The notes under the pieces were generated by a model that had not been told where the DNA came from, did no database searches, and worked only from the letters and a program-made list of their open reading frames with translations. A stretch of 64,000 nt of DNA from a virus: positions 1-64,000 of IMG/VR virus record IMGVR_UViG_3300008267_000005. The stretch is one strand, 5' to 3'. This document shows, piece by piece, positions 38,972-63,118 of this stretch; within the stretch, counting starts at the first letter, position 1, and each line of letters opens with the position of its first letter. The position numbers and the translations under genes are program-made.

Positions 38972-39400
38972 ATGAAGAATAGTATTTACATTAAAAACAG
39001 GAAAGCATCTTTCGATTATTTTTTTCTTGAGGAGTATACAGCAGGAATTCAATTGTTAGGCTCAGAGGTAAAGTCTATAATATCAGGTAAGGTGTCTATG
39101 GTAGATGCTTTTTGCTATATTGACAAAAATGAAATTTTTCTTAAAGGCTTAAATGTTTCTCCTTTAGGTGATTTTTCTCATGATTCTTTACGGGTTAAAA
39201 AATTACTCCTTAAAAAAAGTGAGATTGCAAAATTGCAAAGAGGATTAAGTACAGGAATTACAATCGTTCCTTTCTTGATATTTACCAATGAAAGAGGTAA
39301 GATCAAAATAAAAATTGCTCTTTCTAGGGGTAAGAAAAACTATGACAAAAGAGCTTCTATTAAGGAAAAAGAATTATCTAGGGAATTAAGAAAATCATAG
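38972..39400 (+). CDS. smpB: SsrA-binding protein SmpB
   Basis: The product is 142 aa, close to the usual length. SmpB binds tmRNA and delivers it to stalled ribosomes in trans-translation. Conserved blocks are all present: KNRKASFDYFFLEEYTAGIQ at about 9-28, LGSEVKSIISGKVSMVDAF, a central NVSPLGDFSHDSLRVKKLLL (H-D-x-x-R-x-x-KLLL), then ITIVPFLIFTNERGKIKIKI and the basic C-terminal tail GKKNYDKRASIKEKE that reads the mRNA channel. It appears intact. No tmRNA gene is recognisable in the window, so it may act with the host tmRNA. Very unusual in a phage. Confidence 0.93.
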   Translation: MKNSIYIKNRKASFDYFFLEEYTAGIQLLGSEVKSIISGKVSMVDAFCYIDKNEIFLKGLNVSPLGDFSHDSLRVKKLLLKKSEIAKLQRGLSTGITIVPFLIFTNERGKIKIKIALSRGKKNYDKRASIKEKELSRELRKS

Positions 39401-39420
39401 GTTCCTTTGTCTACTTAGGG

Positions 39421-39428
39421 GATATATA
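39421..39428 (+). promoter_or_regulatory. GATATATA late-type motif
   Basis: GATATATA, 13 nt before the ATG of the sensor kinase operon at 39442. Confidence 0.5.
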
Positions 39429-39441
39429 GCAAGTAAACTAA

Positions 39442-41565
39442 ATGCTTAAATCCTCTAAAATATCTTTACTGGTTTGTATTGTTTTAATGACAATATTCTT
39501 TTCGGTAAAAACATTAGTTCTTTTCGAGACCGTACAAAGTTCTAGGTTAACTAGGATAACCGAATATATTTGTTTCCTTTCTTTCGCTCCCTTCTTTTTT
39601 ATGCTCATTAGGGATCTCAAAATCAAAACGAAAGACACAATATTTCTGAATGATTATTCTAAGAAAATTAATTCTTCCCTGATTAAACAGGCATATAATG
39701 AAATTTACTATTTTGGTGATATCGATCAAGCAGCAAGGTCTGTAACTAAAGAAATAACGGAAACGATTGATGCAGATAGAGCTTCTATTTGGTTGTATAA
39801 CAAAGATAGATCTGGGATTGTTTGTCAGCAATTGTATTCAAAATTAGAAGATTCATTCCAAGACGGAATAGAGTTATTCGAAAAAGATTTTTCAGAGTAT
39901 TTTGAAGCTTTGAGAAATGAACCAATAATAGTTGCAAATGATGCTGAAAACCATCCCTCCACAAGATGTTTTACTGATCCATATCTAAAACCTTTAGGGA
40001 TAAAATCGATGCTGGATGTTCCTATTTGGTACAAGGGATCAAATATTGGTGTGATTTGTATAGAGAATCTCACCTCTAGGAAATGGAGAAAAATAGAAGT
40101 TAATTTTGCACAGATCCTTTCTTCGCTATATTCGTTTGGATTCTCGATGCACGAAACCAATGATTTGCTTAGGAGAATCAAAGAAACTGAAAATTTTATC
40201 GACAAATCATCTCTGGTTTCAATAGCTGATAAAAACGGAAAAATAACTTATGTCAACGAAAAATTTTCTGAAGTTTCTGGTTGGAGTCTAGAAGAAGCTT
40301 GTGGTCAAGATCACTCTATTGTAAACTCCGGTCTACAACCTGATGGATACTGGGGGAAAATGTATGAGAAAGTTTTGAATGGACAAATATGGAATGACAT
40401 TGTAGTTAACAGATCGAAGAATGGACATTTATATTATGTTGATACTTATATCAAGGCAATTTTTGATTCTGGGGGTAAACTAGAGGGATTCCATTCCATT
40501 CGACAAGATGTAACTGAAGTTATAAGAAAAGAAACTGAGATTAGAAATAGGATGAATGCTATCAATCAATCCAATGCTGTTATAGAATTTGATTTAGACG
40601 GGAATATAATGTTTGCTAATAATCTTTTTTTGGAAACTATGGGTTACGATTCTTTTGATGAAATAAAAGGAAAGAATCATAGTTTGTTTGTTTCAGAAGA
40701 GGAGAAAAATAGTAGGGAATATTCCAACATGTGGAAAAATCTATGCATGGGAATTTATTTTTCAAACGATGTAGTTAGGATCAGAAAAAATGGGGAACAG
40801 GTTTTTCTTCAATCCACCTATAATCCAATTTTAACTACTGATGGGAAACCATATAGAATAATGAAAATTGCTACTAATGTTACTGAATCTGTTAAACAAA
40901 AAAATGAAATAGAAAAAAAGAACACTTATTTGGAACATGCTGCTAAAATTTTAAGACACGATATGCACTCTGGGATTAATACGTATATTCCTAGAGGACT
41001 AGGATCTTTAGAAAGAAGGCTCAAACAGGAAGATATAGATTCGCTTAAAATTGAAGCTCCAATCAAAATGATCAAAGAAGGTCTTAGACATGCCCAGAAG
41101 GTTTACAAGGGTGTTTATGAATTTACAAATTTAGTAAAGAAGGATGTAGTTCTAAATAGAACAGATTGTAATTTAAAAATAATCCTACAGGACTATCTTT
41201 CTGCAACTGCTTATCATAGTCAAGTTATCATTTCAGATCTTCCAACAATCAGCGTGAATGAACCACTATTTTGTACTGCTGTAGACAACCTAATAAGGAA
41301 TGGACTTAAGTACAATGACTCGGAAACAAAATTTGTCAAGATTTATTTTGAAGAAGATACTCTTTATATACAGGATAATGGAAGAGGTATAACACAGGAA
41401 GACTTTGAACATTTATCTAAACCCTATACTAGGAAAGAGGGGCAAAAGGAATCTGGAACCGGATTAGGTTTAAACATATGTGTAGCAATTCTTCACGAGC
41501 ATGGATTTTCTATAACTTGTGAGAAAAACCAAATAGGGACCAAGATGAAAATAAAGATGCTATAA
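39442..41565 (+). CDS. membrane sensor histidine kinase (GAF-PAS-PAS-HK)
   Basis: The product is 707 aa. Two spans at about 7-28 and 42-56, a GAF domain (about 75-250), PAS domain 1 (about 255-370: ADKNGKITYVNEKFSEVSGW) and PAS domain 2 (about 375-490: IMFANNLFLETMGY), then the kinase core. The H-box is LRHDMHSGINTY with predicted phospho-His506, unlike the common HDLRNPL/HELRTPL. ATP site: N-box DNLIRNGLKYN, G1 DNGRGIT, G2 GTGLGLNI. All ATP-binding motifs look intact. First gene of an operon with a second kinase and a receiver protein; its stop overlaps the next start (TAATG). Confidence 0.93.
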   Translation: MLKSSKISLLVCIVLMTIFFSVKTLVLFETVQSSRLTRITEYICFLSFAPFFFMLIRDLKIKTKDTIFLNDYSKKINSSLIKQAYNEIYYFGDIDQAARSVTKEITETIDADRASIWLYNKDRSGIVCQQLYSKLEDSFQDGIELFEKDFSEYFEALRNEPIIVANDAENHPSTRCFTDPYLKPLGIKSMLDVPIWYKGSNIGVICIENLTSRKWRKIEVNFAQILSSLYSFGFSMHETNDLLRRIKETENFIDKSSLVSIADKNGKITYVNEKFSEVSGWSLEEACGQDHSIVNSGLQPDGYWGKMYEKVLNGQIWNDIVVNRSKNGHLYYVDTYIKAIFDSGGKLEGFHSIRQDVTEVIRKETEIRNRMNAINQSNAVIEFDLDGNIMFANNLFLETMGYDSFDEIKGKNHSLFVSEEEKNSREYSNMWKNLCMGIYFSNDVVRIRKNGEQVFLQSTYNPILTTDGKPYRIMKIATNVTESVKQKNEIEKKNTYLEHAAKILRHDMHSGINTYIPRGLGSLERRLKQEDIDSLKIEAPIKMIKEGLRHAQKVYKGVYEFTNLVKKDVVLNRTDCNLKIILQDYLSATAYHSQVIISDLPTISVNEPLFCTAVDNLIRNGLKYNDSETKFVKIYFEEDTLYIQDNGRGITQEDFEHLSKPYTRKEGQKESGTGLGLNICVAILHEHGFSITCEKNQIGTKMKIKML

Positions 41566-42152
41566 TGAAAACGCTATTATTAGTTTTCCTCCTAATTTCT
41601 TCTTTGGTTTATTCACAAAACCAATATCCCATTCAAACTATTTTTCGTGGGGACTCTGTAGTTATTCTGACAATCGCACAAAGTGAAGAGATTAACAGAA
41701 CTATCGATGAACAAAATCTGTTGATGCTAAATAAATTTAAAGCTTTTAAAAACACAACGGATAGTCTTAATCGTTTTATTTCATTACAAAATAAAGAAAT
41801 TGATAGTCTCAAAAATTCATTAGATTCCTCTTTAGCATGGAATAACGCTCTTTTAGATAGCATATGGAAATGGTCACTTTCACCTTCGATTATTTTCACC
41901 TCAAGTCCTTTAGATACTGAGCTTTATGTTTTAGACCTTTCAAGATATTTTCTTACAACTGACGACTATGGAATTTTTTTACCAAGGATGAAAGACAGTG
42001 AATATAGAAGATTCTTAGAATATTCTGAAAACGGACAAGGTCCAGGATCAAGAGAAAGGGGATTTGGGGGACTAGGTGATTTGGAACTTGTTGGTCAAGA
42101 AAGAATCAGACAAAGAAAAGTTTGGAAACACAAATCACAATGGAAAAAATGA
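41565..42152 (+). CDS. exported coiled-coil protein of the signalling operon
   Basis: The product is 195 aa. Signal peptide at 1-17 (ends VYSQ), then a coiled coil at about 48-95 (EEINRTIDEQ...SLKNSLDSSL), and a globular, Gly/Arg-rich C-terminal part. Predicted periplasmic. Located between the two kinase genes with TAATG and ATGA overlaps, so it is made with them and could be the partner or ligand-binding subunit of the kinase periplasmic parts; inference. Confidence 0.82.
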   Translation: MKTLLLVFLLISSLVYSQNQYPIQTIFRGDSVVILTIAQSEEINRTIDEQNLLMLNKFKAFKNTTDSLNRFISLQNKEIDSLKNSLDSSLAWNNALLDSIWKWSLSPSIIFTSSPLDTELYVLDLSRYFLTTDDYGIFLPRMKDSEYRRFLEYSENGQGPGSRERGFGGLGDLELVGQERIRQRKVWKHKSQWKK

Positions 42153-43405
42153 AAAATGCCCTTATCCTTTTAATTCTATTCTTACCTTTATTTTCTTTAT
42201 CGCAAGATACAGTAGTGGACAGAAGAATACGCCCTGTATGGGTTGAACCAGAAAAGGTGTTTGAACCTAAGGAGGAAAAAGTCATAACCGCAACAATCTT
42301 GGAAGATGAACTATTTGTAGTTGAAAGCGTTAAAAAAGATTTACAGTTCTTAGAGACGTTACCAAAAACTTACGAAGAACTTCCCAAGCAGGATTTAAAG
42401 AATATTCTTCAAGAGATTGATAATAAAATAAATAAGCTTATTCAAGAGAGAGATTCGTTACTCCAAGCAAAAGTTGTTAATCAAAAATTAGTCGAAACTA
42501 AAGAGGGAACAATTAAAACTCTTAAAAAGGAAAAGAACATTGTTACCTTAACTCTTGAATCTGGAGATTTAAAAGACGAAAATGGAAATCTTATAGTTGA
42601 CAAGGAAATTTTAAAGACTGAAAAAGAAACATATAAGAAATATCTTTATACTGCAATTATTGGATTAGTTCTTTCAATACTTGGAGTTATGGTTCTTTTA
42701 CAGAGAAAAACAATCAGGGTCAAAGACGGAGAGATAGAAAGCCAGTTAGACGATATAAACAAAAAGAACACTTATTTAGAGCACGCAGCCAGAATTATCA
42801 GGCACGATATGCACTCGGGAATTAACACATACATTCCTAGGGGACTGACTTCTTTAGAAAAGAGGATATCTCCAGAAGAAGTACAAAATCTTAAGATAGA
42901 GACCTCTTTAAAAATGATTAAGGATGGATTGGCTCACACTCAAAGGGTTTACAAGAGTGTGTACGAGTTTACTAATTTGGTAAAGCAAAATGTTGTTTTA
43001 GATAAAAAGTTGATTAGTATTTCCGAGATATTGCAAAACTATATGAGCAACACCTCTTATTCAAACCAGGTTAAACTTGAGTCGCTTCCTGACTTAGAGG
43101 TTAATGCAGTATTATTTTGTAATGCACTCGATAATCTTATAAAGAATGGACTTAAATATAATGACAACGAGGATAAATATGTTAGAATTTACATGGAAGA
43201 AGAAAATCTCGTAGTTCAAGACAACGGGAGAGGACTAACAAGAAAACAGTTTGAAAAAATCATCAAACGCAAAAGGGAAGAACAAGAGGAAGGGGAAATG
43301 GGACTGGGTTTGAGTATTTCTAATGTAATTTTTAAGGAGCACGGATTTGAGATGTTGTGTGATAAAAATGACATCGGAACCAAAATAATAATTAAACTGA
43401 AATAA
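42149..43405 (+). CDS. second sensor histidine kinase with periplasmic coiled coil
   Basis: The product is 418 aa from ATG 42149 (ATGA overlap; an in-frame ATG lies 9 nt earlier). Signal peptide MKNALILLILFLPLFSLSQD, a periplasmic region with a coiled coil (about 85-160), one span at about 165-185, a short linker helix, then a kinase core. The stretch KKNTYLEHAARIIRHDMHSG (phospho-His219) through PRGL is nearly identical to that of the first kinase, as are the N-box DNLIKNGLKYN and G1 DNGRGLT; G2 is MGLGLSI. The two kinase cores are paralogues with different sensors, so they probably share one response regulator. Confidence 0.92.
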   Translation: MKNALILLILFLPLFSLSQDTVVDRRIRPVWVEPEKVFEPKEEKVITATILEDELFVVESVKKDLQFLETLPKTYEELPKQDLKNILQEIDNKINKLIQERDSLLQAKVVNQKLVETKEGTIKTLKKEKNIVTLTLESGDLKDENGNLIVDKEILKTEKETYKKYLYTAIIGLVLSILGVMVLLQRKTIRVKDGEIESQLDDINKKNTYLEHAARIIRHDMHSGINTYIPRGLTSLEKRISPEEVQNLKIETSLKMIKDGLAHTQRVYKSVYEFTNLVKQNVVLDKKLISISEILQNYMSNTSYSNQVKLESLPDLEVNAVLFCNALDNLIKNGLKYNDNEDKYVRIYMEEENLVVQDNGRGLTRKQFEKIIKRKREEQEEGEMGLGLSISNVIFKEHGFEMLCDKNDIGTKIIIKLK

Positions 43406-43409
43406 AATT

Positions 43410-43841
43410 ATGATTGATTCAATTTTGTTAGTAGACGATGAGGACTTATTCCACTTAGTTTTTGAGGATTCCTGTTCATTGTTAGATATAACTCTTTCTT
43501 TAAAGACCTTGAACAGCTCAGATGAAGCTGCTAAACTTTTCCAGCAGTGGCAGAAAAACCCAGCAGAAAAACCAGAATGTGTTTTTGTTGACTTGAATAT
43601 CATAGGTTCTTCCTTTGATGGTATCGAGCTTATTAGAAAAATCAACTTTGAATACGGAAATCACGTTGTGATAGGTATAATTTCATCATCTAATGAACCC
43701 GATGAACAGGCTAAAGCAATACAAGCGGGAGCTCAATTTTGGATTATAAAATCTGATGATATTGAACCAAGACTTGAAGAATTTAAAAAGGATTACGACG
43801 GATACAAAAAAAGAACTGCACCTTTCAAAGTTTATAAGTGA
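43410..43841 (+). CDS. single-domain response regulator (receiver)
   Basis: The product is 143 aa and is a bare receiver domain. Acidic pair Asp9/Asp10 in ILLVDDED, phospho-acceptor Asp61 in CVFVDLN, Ser in IGIISSSNEP, and the conserved Lys in FWIIKSDD are all present. The last about 20 residues are basic. No DNA-binding output domain is attached, so it may act by protein contact, as CheY or as a phosphorelay intermediate. It is 4 bp after the second kinase gene and overlaps the next gene by 4 nt (GTGA). Confidence 0.92.
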   Translation: MIDSILLVDDEDLFHLVFEDSCSLLDITLSLKTLNSSDEAAKLFQQWQKNPAEKPECVFVDLNIIGSSFDGIELIRKINFEYGNHVVIGIISSSNEPDEQAKAIQAGAQFWIIKSDDIEPRLEEFKKDYDGYKKRTAPFKVYK

Positions 43842-44527
43842 TTAAACTAACCAGTGAAATAAAGAAGGAATTAATTTCCATCTCTGAATCTAAAAATCTT
43901 TTTTTAGAAGGTAACATCATTAAAGTAATAGATTCTGGTGGGGACGAGGAATTTAGCGAGTATTTAAAAAAGTGTTCAGAGAAAGATATTGCCACTAGGA
44001 AGAAAAGGCTCGAAATCACCAAACAGATCCAGACAAAAAATAAGGAGTTATTGGATCTTAATGATGAGAACAAAAGAATAATGGAGGAGCTTCAGGAAGC
44101 CCTTACTCAAACAGAAACTTCTAAAGAACAAATCGAAAGTCAAAATAAAGAACTGCTACTCTGGAAAGATGACAACGAAAGGATGAGTCAAGAACTCAGG
44201 GAAGAAATGCTTAAATCTGAGAGAGCAAGGGAAGAAGCAGAAAAGGCTAAACAAAATGCTGAAAATGATTTAGATGTTCTACAGAAAAGAACACAATTCG
44301 AATTAATTAGCACCATAGTAAGGGTTGCTCTTTATATAATTCTAGGAGTAGGTTTGGTCACAACCGGGCTTTATTTAACTGCAATGTTCACAGATAAGGA
44401 CACACAAATAATTAGTTCTACCTGGAGCAATATGTTTGGTATTCTATTAACAAATGCCTTTAGTATTATCGGTACTATAATGGGTGTTAAATATGCTTCG
44501 CAAGGATCAGGAAAATCTGGAGAATAA
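43838..44527 (+). CDS. coiled-coil membrane protein of the signalling operon
   Basis: The product is 229 aa from GTG 43838, which overlaps the receiver stop. Residues 1-50 are soluble, 50-150 a long coiled coil (LLDLNDENKRIMEELQEALT), then two spans at about 155-182 and 198-222 with GTIMGVKYASQGSGKSGE at the end. The soluble part could bind the receiver and pass the signal to the membrane pair, which recalls small two-span lysis-type proteins. This output role is a hypothesis. Confidence 0.82.
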   Translation: MIKLTSEIKKELISISESKNLFLEGNIIKVIDSGGDEEFSEYLKKCSEKDIATRKKRLEITKQIQTKNKELLDLNDENKRIMEELQEALTQTETSKEQIESQNKELLLWKDDNERMSQELREEMLKSERAREEAEKAKQNAENDLDVLQKRTQFELISTIVRVALYIILGVGLVTTGLYLTAMFTDKDTQIISSTWSNMFGILLTNAFSIIGTIMGVKYASQGSGKSGE

Positions 44528-44803: not shown

Positions 44804-45052
44804 ATGAAAAAAATAATTTATTTAATCATTCCAGTTTTCATTATCGGCTGTTTCGATAAACAAAAGGAAGTCAAGAAAGTCAAATGTGAAGTTGTTTCTT
44901 CTGAAAAAATTCCAATAGTTTCTGTTATGGATGAAATCAACAGGAAAAATCAATGGAGGGTTAAAACTGATTGTTGGGACAACACGTTCGTGGTAGATAA
45001 ACAATATTGTCCAGGAGATTCTATTGAGATCGAAGTGATTTCATTTAAGTAA
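44804..45052 (+). CDS. small lipoprotein, 82 aa
   Basis: The signal peptide KKIIYLIIPVFIIGC ends in a lipobox with Cys16; the mature part is short, with Cys27, Cys57 and Cys68. Predicted anchored to the inner or outer membrane. It could be an o-spanin partner for the coiled-coil protein of 27022-27513 because it lies just before the endolysin gene; this is speculation. Confidence 0.75.
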   Translation: MKKIIYLIIPVFIIGCFDKQKEVKKVKCEVVSSEKIPIVSVMDEINRKNQWRVKTDCWDNTFVVDKQYCPGDSIEIEVISFK

Positions 45053-45069
45053 ATTAAGGACTTTTTGGG

Positions 45070-45077
45070 GATATATA
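45070..45077 (+). promoter_or_regulatory. GATATATA late-type motif
   Basis: GATATATA, 16 nt before the endolysin ATG at 45094. Confidence 0.5.
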
Positions 45078-45093
45078 GTAAAAAATATATCTC

Positions 45094-45927
45094 ATGATTC
45101 TTAAACTCGGCTCTAAAGGTCCTGATGTGGAAAGATTACAGAAAGCTCTAGGAATTGGAGCAGACGGAAATTTCGGTCCAGGCACAGAACAATCGCTAAA
45201 ACAATGGCAAGAAAAACACGGTCTCACTGCTGACGGAATAGCAGGCCCAGCAACATTGGATCGGATGGGAGTTACTGCTTCTTTTCCTGATGCCCCTTCA
45301 GCATCACCAGTTACCATTCCATCAAGCTCTTTCAAGCTGGATAAACTAAAAGGTCATATTCCGGATGCAGTGATTGCACAGATTCCAGACACTGCTGCAA
45401 AATTTGGAATTACAAACACTTTAAGACTTGCACACTTCTTAGCTCAGTGTGGTCATGAATCAGGAGGTTTCAAAGCTGTCTCTGAGAATCTAAACTATTC
45501 AGCTGATGGCCTTAAAAAGATTTTTCCTAAATACTTTCCTGGAAACTTAAACGAATCATATTCTAGACAACCCGAAAAAATTGCCAACAAGGTTTATTCT
45601 TCTAGAATGGGAAATGGAGATGAAGCTTCTGGTGATGGCTATAAATTCAGAGGTAGAGGTTATATCCAACTAACAGGAAAATCTAATTACTCAGCTTTCG
45701 ATAAAATGGTTGATGAAGATATCTTAGCCAATCCAGATTTAGTTGCAACTAAATATCCATTGATGTCTGCTGCATTTTTCTTCAACAATAACGGACTTTG
45801 GAGCATATGTGATAAAGGTGCAGATGATGCAACTGTCACAGCAGTAACAAAGAGAGTAAACGGAGGAACTATTGGATTACCTGATCGTATCAAACATTTC
45901 AAAGAATACTATAGCCTCTTGGCCTAA
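45094..45927 (+). CDS. endolysin: peptidoglycan-binding domain plus GH19
   Basis: The product is 277 aa. Residues 1-58 are a PG_binding_1 domain (LKLGSKGPDVERLQKALG, DGNFGPGTEQSLKQWQ, DGIAGPATLDRMG). Linker at 60-80. Residues 85-275 are a GH19 (chitinase-like lysozyme) domain with catalytic Glu122 in QCGHESGGF, and FRGRGYIQLTGKSNYS near 188-203. It would hydrolyse peptidoglycan glycan strands during lysis. No signal peptide or tag, so release depends on a holin (candidates at 17439 and 15393). Terminator follows. Confidence 0.93.
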   Translation: MILKLGSKGPDVERLQKALGIGADGNFGPGTEQSLKQWQEKHGLTADGIAGPATLDRMGVTASFPDAPSASPVTIPSSSFKLDKLKGHIPDAVIAQIPDTAAKFGITNTLRLAHFLAQCGHESGGFKAVSENLNYSADGLKKIFPKYFPGNLNESYSRQPEKIANKVYSSRMGNGDEASGDGYKFRGRGYIQLTGKSNYSAFDKMVDEDILANPDLVATKYPLMSAAFFFNNNGLWSICDKGADDATVTAVTKRVNGGTIGLPDRIKHFKEYYSLLA

Positions 45928-62257: not shown

Positions 62258-62265
62258 TATATATC
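62258..62265 (-). promoter_or_regulatory. GATATATA late-type motif
   Basis: GATATATA on the minus strand at the stop of the gene 62264-63118, about 160 nt before the next leftward start; it would give a long leader. Confidence 0.35.
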
Positions 62266-63118
62266 AAGCCATCGTTGCGGTTCCTGAAGATAGATCAACT
62301 GAAAAATTAGCTGCAAATTGTTGGGCACGTACGAATCCTTCGTCATTGGTAACATCGTTACCCCAACCAGCATTTGCATTAGTCATTGCTTTGGTAGCAG
62401 TGAATTGATCTTTAAAACCGTTTATATCTGCAACACCAAATTTTTGAGCCATTTGCGGACTTGATGCTCTAGATAGGAAATAAAGAACCGCAAATTCTGC
62501 TGCAACTTCCGGATCATCAAGTAAATCTGGATTTGTTACAATGTTTACTTGTCTGTTTAGCTTTCCTTTTGAATCATATAACTTTTGCATTTTTTCATAT
62601 GATCCTTTGAAGGTTAATTGGTTGAAACCTCTTCCTCTAAATTTCCAACCGTCTCCTGGAGCTGAATTTCCATATTTCTGAGACTTCCCTGTTTTATCAC
62701 CTGGTCCATAAACGAGATCAAAGAATTTCTCATCATTTGTCTTGATTTGATCGATTTGAGCATCTGTCAGATCGTTTACTCTTGCTCCAAATATTTTTCT
62801 AATTCTTTCCGGTGAGGTATTTCCGTATCCTTTTTCTATTTTTGGAATGTAACCACTTTCTTTTCCTACTACTCCAAGAATTGCTATTTGTGTGAAAGGA
62901 TTTGTGATCCCGTGCTTTTTCATTGCGTCAATAAGAAGCTGAATATTTTTACCCTTATCACCTGAACCTGAAAATCTCACACTACCACCAACTATAGAAG
63001 GTTTAGGGTCTTTAACTTCTTCTGGTCCACCCAATCCTAATAGGTCTAGAAACTTTCCATAGGCATTTCTAAAAAGTTGTTCGTTTATAAACTCTTCTAT
63101 TGGTTTGAGGTGTTTCAT
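62264..63118 (-). CDS. tagged GH19-like peptidoglycan hydrolase
   Basis: The product is 284 aa. The tag MKHLKPIEEFINEQLFRNAY (site INE|Q) resembles those at 28476 and 29236. Gly-rich linker at about 30-55. GH19/lysozyme-like domain at about 58-270 with catalytic Glu87 in GVVGKESGY, and FRGRGFNQLTFKGSYEKM near 160-177. It is related to the endolysin at 45094 only in this domain. The tag suggests that it is packaged and used for entry, while the untagged enzyme serves lysis. GGATAAATA lies 20 nt upstream. Confidence 0.85.
   Translation of the reverse strand: MKHLKPIEEFINEQLFRNAYGKFLDLLGLGGPEEVKDPKPSIVGGSVRFSGSGDKGKNIQLLIDAMKKHGITNPFTQIAILGVVGKESGYIPKIEKGYGNTSPERIRKIFGARVNDLTDAQIDQIKTNDEKFFDLVYGPGDKTGKSQKYGNSAPGDGWKFRGRGFNQLTFKGSYEKMQKLYDSKGKLNRQVNIVTNPDLLDDPEVAAEFAVLYFLSRASSPQMAQKFGVADINGFKDQFTATKAMTNANAGWGNDVTNDEGFVRAQQFAANFSVDLSSGTATMA

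Follow-up and report, generated by a model that had tools for sequence, protein, structure and literature searches.

A stretch of 64,000 nucleotides of virus DNA (the window; positions 1 to 64,000 of IMG/VR record IMGVR_UViG_3300008267_000005) carries a two-component signalling operon that belongs to the phage itself. It is fairly probable that the encoded proteins form a phosphorelay that controls host lysis by gating a membrane effector. Gene content, intact catalytic residues, the constant pairing of receiver and membrane protein, linkage to an endolysin gene and a shared promoter-like element were observed directly. The findings suggest that the large, uncultivated T4-type phages carrying this circuit, usually beside the endolysin gene, sense the condition of their host and time lysis by it.

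Operon structure

The features of the operon and its downstream flank are as follows.

39418..39429, + strand: promoter-like 12-mer GGGGATATATAG, before HK1
39442..41565, + strand: HK1, GAF-PAS-PAS kinase with two membrane spans, H506 in the phospho-acceptor helix and a HATPase_c domain (Pfam, hydropathy, H, N and G boxes invariant in relatives)
41565..42152, + strand: B, exported coiled-coil protein, optional; signal peptide in the sequence, no family match
42149..43405, + strand: HK2, kinase of one span with signal peptide, coiled coil in the periplasm, H219 in the phospho-acceptor helix and a HATPase_c domain
43410..43841, + strand: REC, stand-alone receiver domain with D61 as phospho-acceptor (PF00072 above cut-off, invariant residues)
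43838..44527, + strand: E, proposed effector, with a small cytosolic domain at the N terminus, a long coiled coil and a two-span hairpin
44804..45052, + strand: small lipoprotein (from sequence; a similar short lipoprotein stands 5' of the endolysin in L062)
45067..45078, + strand: second, identical copy of GGGGATATATAG, before the endolysin gene
45094..45927, + strand: endolysin, peptidoglycan-binding domain plus GH19 (PF01471, PF00182; phrog_181 5e-69)

All five open reading frames at 39442-44527 are present at the place, on the strand and with the overlaps described in an earlier, sequence-only reading. HK1 and B overlap by 1 nt (TAATG), and B and HK2 by 4 nt (ATGA; HK2 starts with ATG at 42149). 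A 4-bp gap separates HK2 from REC, and REC overlaps E by 4 nt, the start codon of E being GTG at 43838. The operon is flanked upstream by a SmpB homologue and downstream by a short ORF, the small lipoprotein and the GH19 endolysin. The SmpB homologue (38972-39400, TIGR00086, 154.7 bits, over cut-off) lies directly 5' of the operon; although SmpB is encoded, a tmRNA was not detected in the 175-kb record. A second, diverged phrog_181 endolysin-like protein is encoded at 62264-63118.

Genome context and promoter-like elements

The virus record from which the window comes is 174,942 bases long. It encodes a T4-type major capsid protein, Gp23 (169485-170888, 2.3e-39), and a terminase (7.7e-22), and contains no tyrosine integrase. 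Gp23 was matched in 21 of the 28 long operon-bearing records searched, a count that leaves out a 29th entry, a bacterial MAG. The description of the phage as lytic fits the absence of an integrase, which alone is no proof.

The 12-mer GGGGATATATAG occurs twice in the window and nowhere else there, preceding HK1 and the endolysin gene. The core GATATATA[AG] has 32 sites genome-wide (G000), 22 of them at most 40 bp 5' of an ORF start, against a background of 2.5% and 1 of 27 sites for five control words. It also stands before the tail spike gene and before the gene preceding gp23. GATATATA[AG] is probably a phage promoter, which would serve late genes. A T4-like TATAAATA late promoter before HK1 was considered for the window and rejected; GATATATAG stands there instead. 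Capsid protein, terminase, lack of an integrase and phage promoter together rule out an origin from the host chromosome, and the phage origin assumed in the sequence-only reading is supported.

In relatives, TATTTAT stands before 54 of 84 HK1 genes, frequently following an apparent intrinsic terminator, and the motif, in the form [AG]TATTTAT, is enriched before ORFs generally. Judged by the motif, the terminator-like element and this enrichment, the operon in relatives looks like a transcription unit of its own. The label 'late' is not extended to the relatives, where [AG]TATTTAT precedes gp23 itself in just 1 of 16 records.

Distribution and gene order

Scans of IMG/VR found relatives of HK2 in at least 596 stretches, of REC in at least 548 and of E in at least 561. 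Chance is excluded because the operon is conserved in hundreds of contigs. When loci with distinct E are counted (110), REC lies immediately 5' of E in 107, and two of the remaining three are contig ends. Among the 65 loci with full flanks, the commonest unit is HK1-REC-E (40 loci), so that the twin kinases seen in the window are not the general form. The twin kinases are not the core, and the five-gene arrangement HK1-B-HK2-REC-E of the window is a minority (16/65); three loci lack B.

Two of the 65 loci contain an insert of 240 aa that resembles homing endonucleases (NUMOD3); a NUMOD3/GIY-YIG-like homing endonuclease is located between HK2 and REC at L008:3518-4240. Two others (L072 and L075) contain a patatin phospholipase of the CBASS type between HK1 and REC (L072:3000-3992; PADLOC 1.3e-71), which is again a membrane-damaging function.

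The operon was also sought outside environmental virus contigs. With tblastn, HK2, E and REC gave no match in 50,697 records of isolated phages; the HK1 core gave weak generic matches only, with at most 34% identity among the best rows listed. Pattern scans of 84,980 species genomes, which use short peptide patterns and may overlook remote relatives, returned none for REC and a single contig for E. This contig carries terminase-like and portal-like genes together with HK1-REC-E and is therefore phage DNA; in 245 genomes of its phylum the H-box DNA pattern matched that contig only. The module is widespread and, as far as searched, confined to phages, which supports the sequence-only reading on this point.

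Kinases and receiver

HK1 matches the Pfam families GAF (2.7e-16), PAS (twice) and HATPase_c (2.2e-14), and has membrane spans at residues 9-27 and 43-61 by hydropathy. HK2 matches HATPase_c (6.1e-12) and has a signal peptide and one span at 166-184, also by hydropathy. PF02518 is above cut-off in both kinases; no HisKA-type Pfam match was obtained for either at E 0.01. The original assignment to HisKA/HATPase_c kinases is thus retained for HATPase_c, while the HisKA subfamily does not stand. The N, G1 and G2 boxes (N127/N131, DNGxG, GLG) are conserved in 85 kinase cores. The H-box noted as common to both kinase cores is real: RHDMHSGINTY, with the acceptor histidine in the dimerisation helix, is invariant in all 91 cores examined, of which the HK2s were partly found via this motif and the HK1s, found as neighbours, were not. 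The sensor region that precedes the histidine is of variable length, about 110 to 510 residues.

In the kinase-core tree, HK1 and HK2 are separated by a 99/99 branch. The duplication is therefore old, and the two are ancient paralogues and not a recent pair. HK2 with the exported protein B is an older, optional addition to HK1-REC-E. Relatives of B adjoin HK2 at 30-46% identity, and B is a possible sensor partner of HK2; it matched no family in Pfam and other profile searches.

The depth of this split bears on the idea that the operon is made up of host signalling genes that were captured recently and have no fixed role. All of its domains are of bacterial type, as that idea would have it. Recent capture is nevertheless very improbable and already contradicted by the two anciently separated clades (99/99), the constant order in hundreds of contigs, the intact active sites, the phage promoter and the failure of the searches to find a cellular relative.

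REC belongs to Response_reg (PF00072, 38.2 bits against a cut-off of 30.2) and has the acidic pair, phospho-acceptor aspartate, Ser/Thr and Lys of a receiver, with no DNA-binding domain. D9, D10, D61, S92, S93 and K114 are invariant in 39 REC sequences, with a mean column identity of 84%. Relatives' REC proteins are 74-94% identical to that of the window, whereas the sensors vary; a constant receiver amid variable sensors is what would be expected of a hub.

The signal could also leave the circuit. REC or the kinases might compete with host two-component proteins and rewire stress signalling, with E anchoring REC at the membrane. Manipulation of host two-component systems by phages is known, as with PIT4 (PMC10714779). 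HK2-like kinases without a detected receiver domain occur in three large virus records (L016:9605-11092, L027:9503-11035, L028:9713-11176), so that a few kinases may signal to a protein of the host. Against this, REC and E are always together, REC is highly conserved, and one acceptor helix is found in both kinase types, all as expected of an internal circuit. Rewiring of the host is accordingly a rather improbable account of the operon.

Membrane protein E

E has spans at residues 156-174 and 199-217 by hydropathy, and its AlphaFold model has a pLDDT of 86. The N-terminal domain is cytosolic and contains invariant residues (alignment A1). Across relatives E measures 185-229 aa, the coiled coil being some 34-38 residues shorter in some of them. 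The second span, TM2 (TWSNMFGILLTNAFSIIGTIMGVKYA), is the most conserved part, with 17 of 26 positions invariant. N198, T205, S209, G212 and G216 share one helical face of TM2, and its polar moment is matched by 1.2% of shuffles (P 0.012).

E has no family above cut-off in Pfam and other profile searches, and is a new protein family. Comparison with solved structures returned coiled-coil chance matches only; among viral predicted structures the sole confident match is one uncharacterised homologue. PADLOC matches to JetC were taken as coiled-coil noise. The identification of E as a known holin is not supported: Phage_holin_9 (PF23809) matched 6 of 39 members weakly (0.02-0.04, below cut-off), which is at most a hint, no record of 23 exceeded the cut-off for a known holin family, and no homologue of T4 holin T (PF11031) was matched in 18 records. 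With its two spans and its linkage to endolysin, E does correspond to a membrane-spanning protein beside an endolysin, and it is the likely output of the circuit.

Most holins are smaller than E. The genes right after E at L025:7558-8097, L058:12223-12531 and L024:12352-12720 encode small membrane proteins that belong to no known family and are holin candidates. In L024 and L058 the small two-span ORF stands between E and the endolysin gene, so that E may only regulate.

Linkage to the endolysin gene

After removal of duplicates, 22 long records have both E and a GH19 endolysin, and in 15 of them the two lie no more than 6 kb apart, against 2.2 expected. Random placement reached a maximum of 10 records in 20,000 trials; the phages are related, so the records are not fully independent. 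A capsid gene was found within 10 kb of E in 0 of 17 records. Of the 65 full-flank loci, 43 have a GH19 enzyme no more than 4 kb from the operon ends, a count that rises to 46 when a 203-aa endolysin-related protein is included, and 19 have no endolysin within 4 kb. Relative to the operon, the GH19 gene is downstream on the same strand in 20 cases, upstream on the opposite strand in 17, upstream on the same strand in 5 and downstream on the opposite strand in 1. Four different arrangements argue that the linkage was kept through rearrangement. E stands directly 5' of the endolysin, the classical holin slot, in L032, L057, L123, L195 and others; in G002 and G015 the endolysin is 37-58 kb distant.

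The loci without a nearby endolysin would also suit control of another membrane event, such as superinfection exclusion, a block of DNA entry or upkeep of membrane energy in a long infection, the endolysin being a mere neighbour in the late region. A bare receiver with a membrane effector implies the membrane and not lysis as such, and the sensors resemble general stress sensors. This explanation is unlikely, given the strong endolysin linkage, which persists in all four relative arrangements, and given that no other gene family, the operon aside, exceeds 12 of 55 loci.

Proposed function

Lysis control by phosphorelay is favored by the invariant catalytic residues of kinases and receiver, the REC-E pairing, the endolysin linkage, the common 12-mer, the polar face of TM2 and the phospholipase in L072 and L075. 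Points against it are that E is outside the holin families and larger than most holins, that 19/65 loci lack an endolysin within 4 kb, that L024 and L058 have a separate small two-span ORF, and that the endolysin of G002 and G015 is far off. Lysis as the target was only a guess in the sequence-only reading; it now has positional and promoter evidence, and remains likely only.

In the proposed relay, HK1 would read the cytoplasm and membrane through its GAF and PAS domains, and HK2, where present, would read the periplasm, perhaps with exported B. The two kinases have the same phospho-acceptor helix and therefore should act on one receiver, REC, which a kinase would phosphorylate. REC, either phosphorylated or unphosphorylated, would bind the cytosolic part of its constant partner E and switch the two-span hairpin. 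The invariant polar second helix of E probably forms or gates a lesion in the membrane. By forming, gating or blocking this lesion, E could free the neighbouring endolysin early or late, and would thus be a holin or holin regulator. The switch may work as trigger or as brake, and the signal sensed may be envelope damage, energy state or superinfection.

The chances are about even that large T4-type phages share a widespread, undescribed class of lysis control, in which a His-Asp phosphorelay with swappable sensors acts through a receiver that gates a new pore-forming or pore-regulating family. If true, hundreds of environmental phages gauge the state of the cell with bacterial signalling chemistry. 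The system would be tractable, with one receiver, one effector and exchangeable sensors, and for the new family E the prediction is clear: the receiver switches a lesion in the membrane.

Comparison with known systems

Lysis timing is understood in a few coliphages, where it works by direct protein binding. No phage-encoded kinase-receiver operon was found in the literature, the coverage of which was incomplete, so that absence is no proof. A survey of jumbo phages reported a divergent receiver domain, cRec, never in histidine-kinase systems (PMC7824862). Both cRec and REC are receiver-like folds in large phages; the canonical receiver here, in contrast, shares an operon with kinases. The patatin phospholipase of L072 and L075 is a relative of the CapV-type effectors of CBASS, whereas no cyclase or other CBASS gene was seen in the operon and the enzyme occurs in only 2/65 full-flank loci.

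Lysis inhibition in T4 involves holin T and the antiholins RI and RIII, an antiholin binding the holin directly without a kinase (PMC11413866); in ICP1 the lysis inhibition system is TeaA/ArrA (PMC7182436). As proposed here, the condition of the infected cell is sensed in both and lysis time is reset via a membrane protein, so that the resemblance is one of purpose and not of mechanism. In its proposed mechanism the circuit is like bacterial two-component systems: the N, G1 and G2 boxes and acceptor histidine of the kinases and the DD/D/S/K residues of the receiver are all present, and are invariant here. It differs from them in being encoded by a virus, in its atypical H-box HDMHSGIN without a Pfam HisKA match, and in having a dedicated partner, E, a coiled-coil protein with two spans that belongs to no known family.
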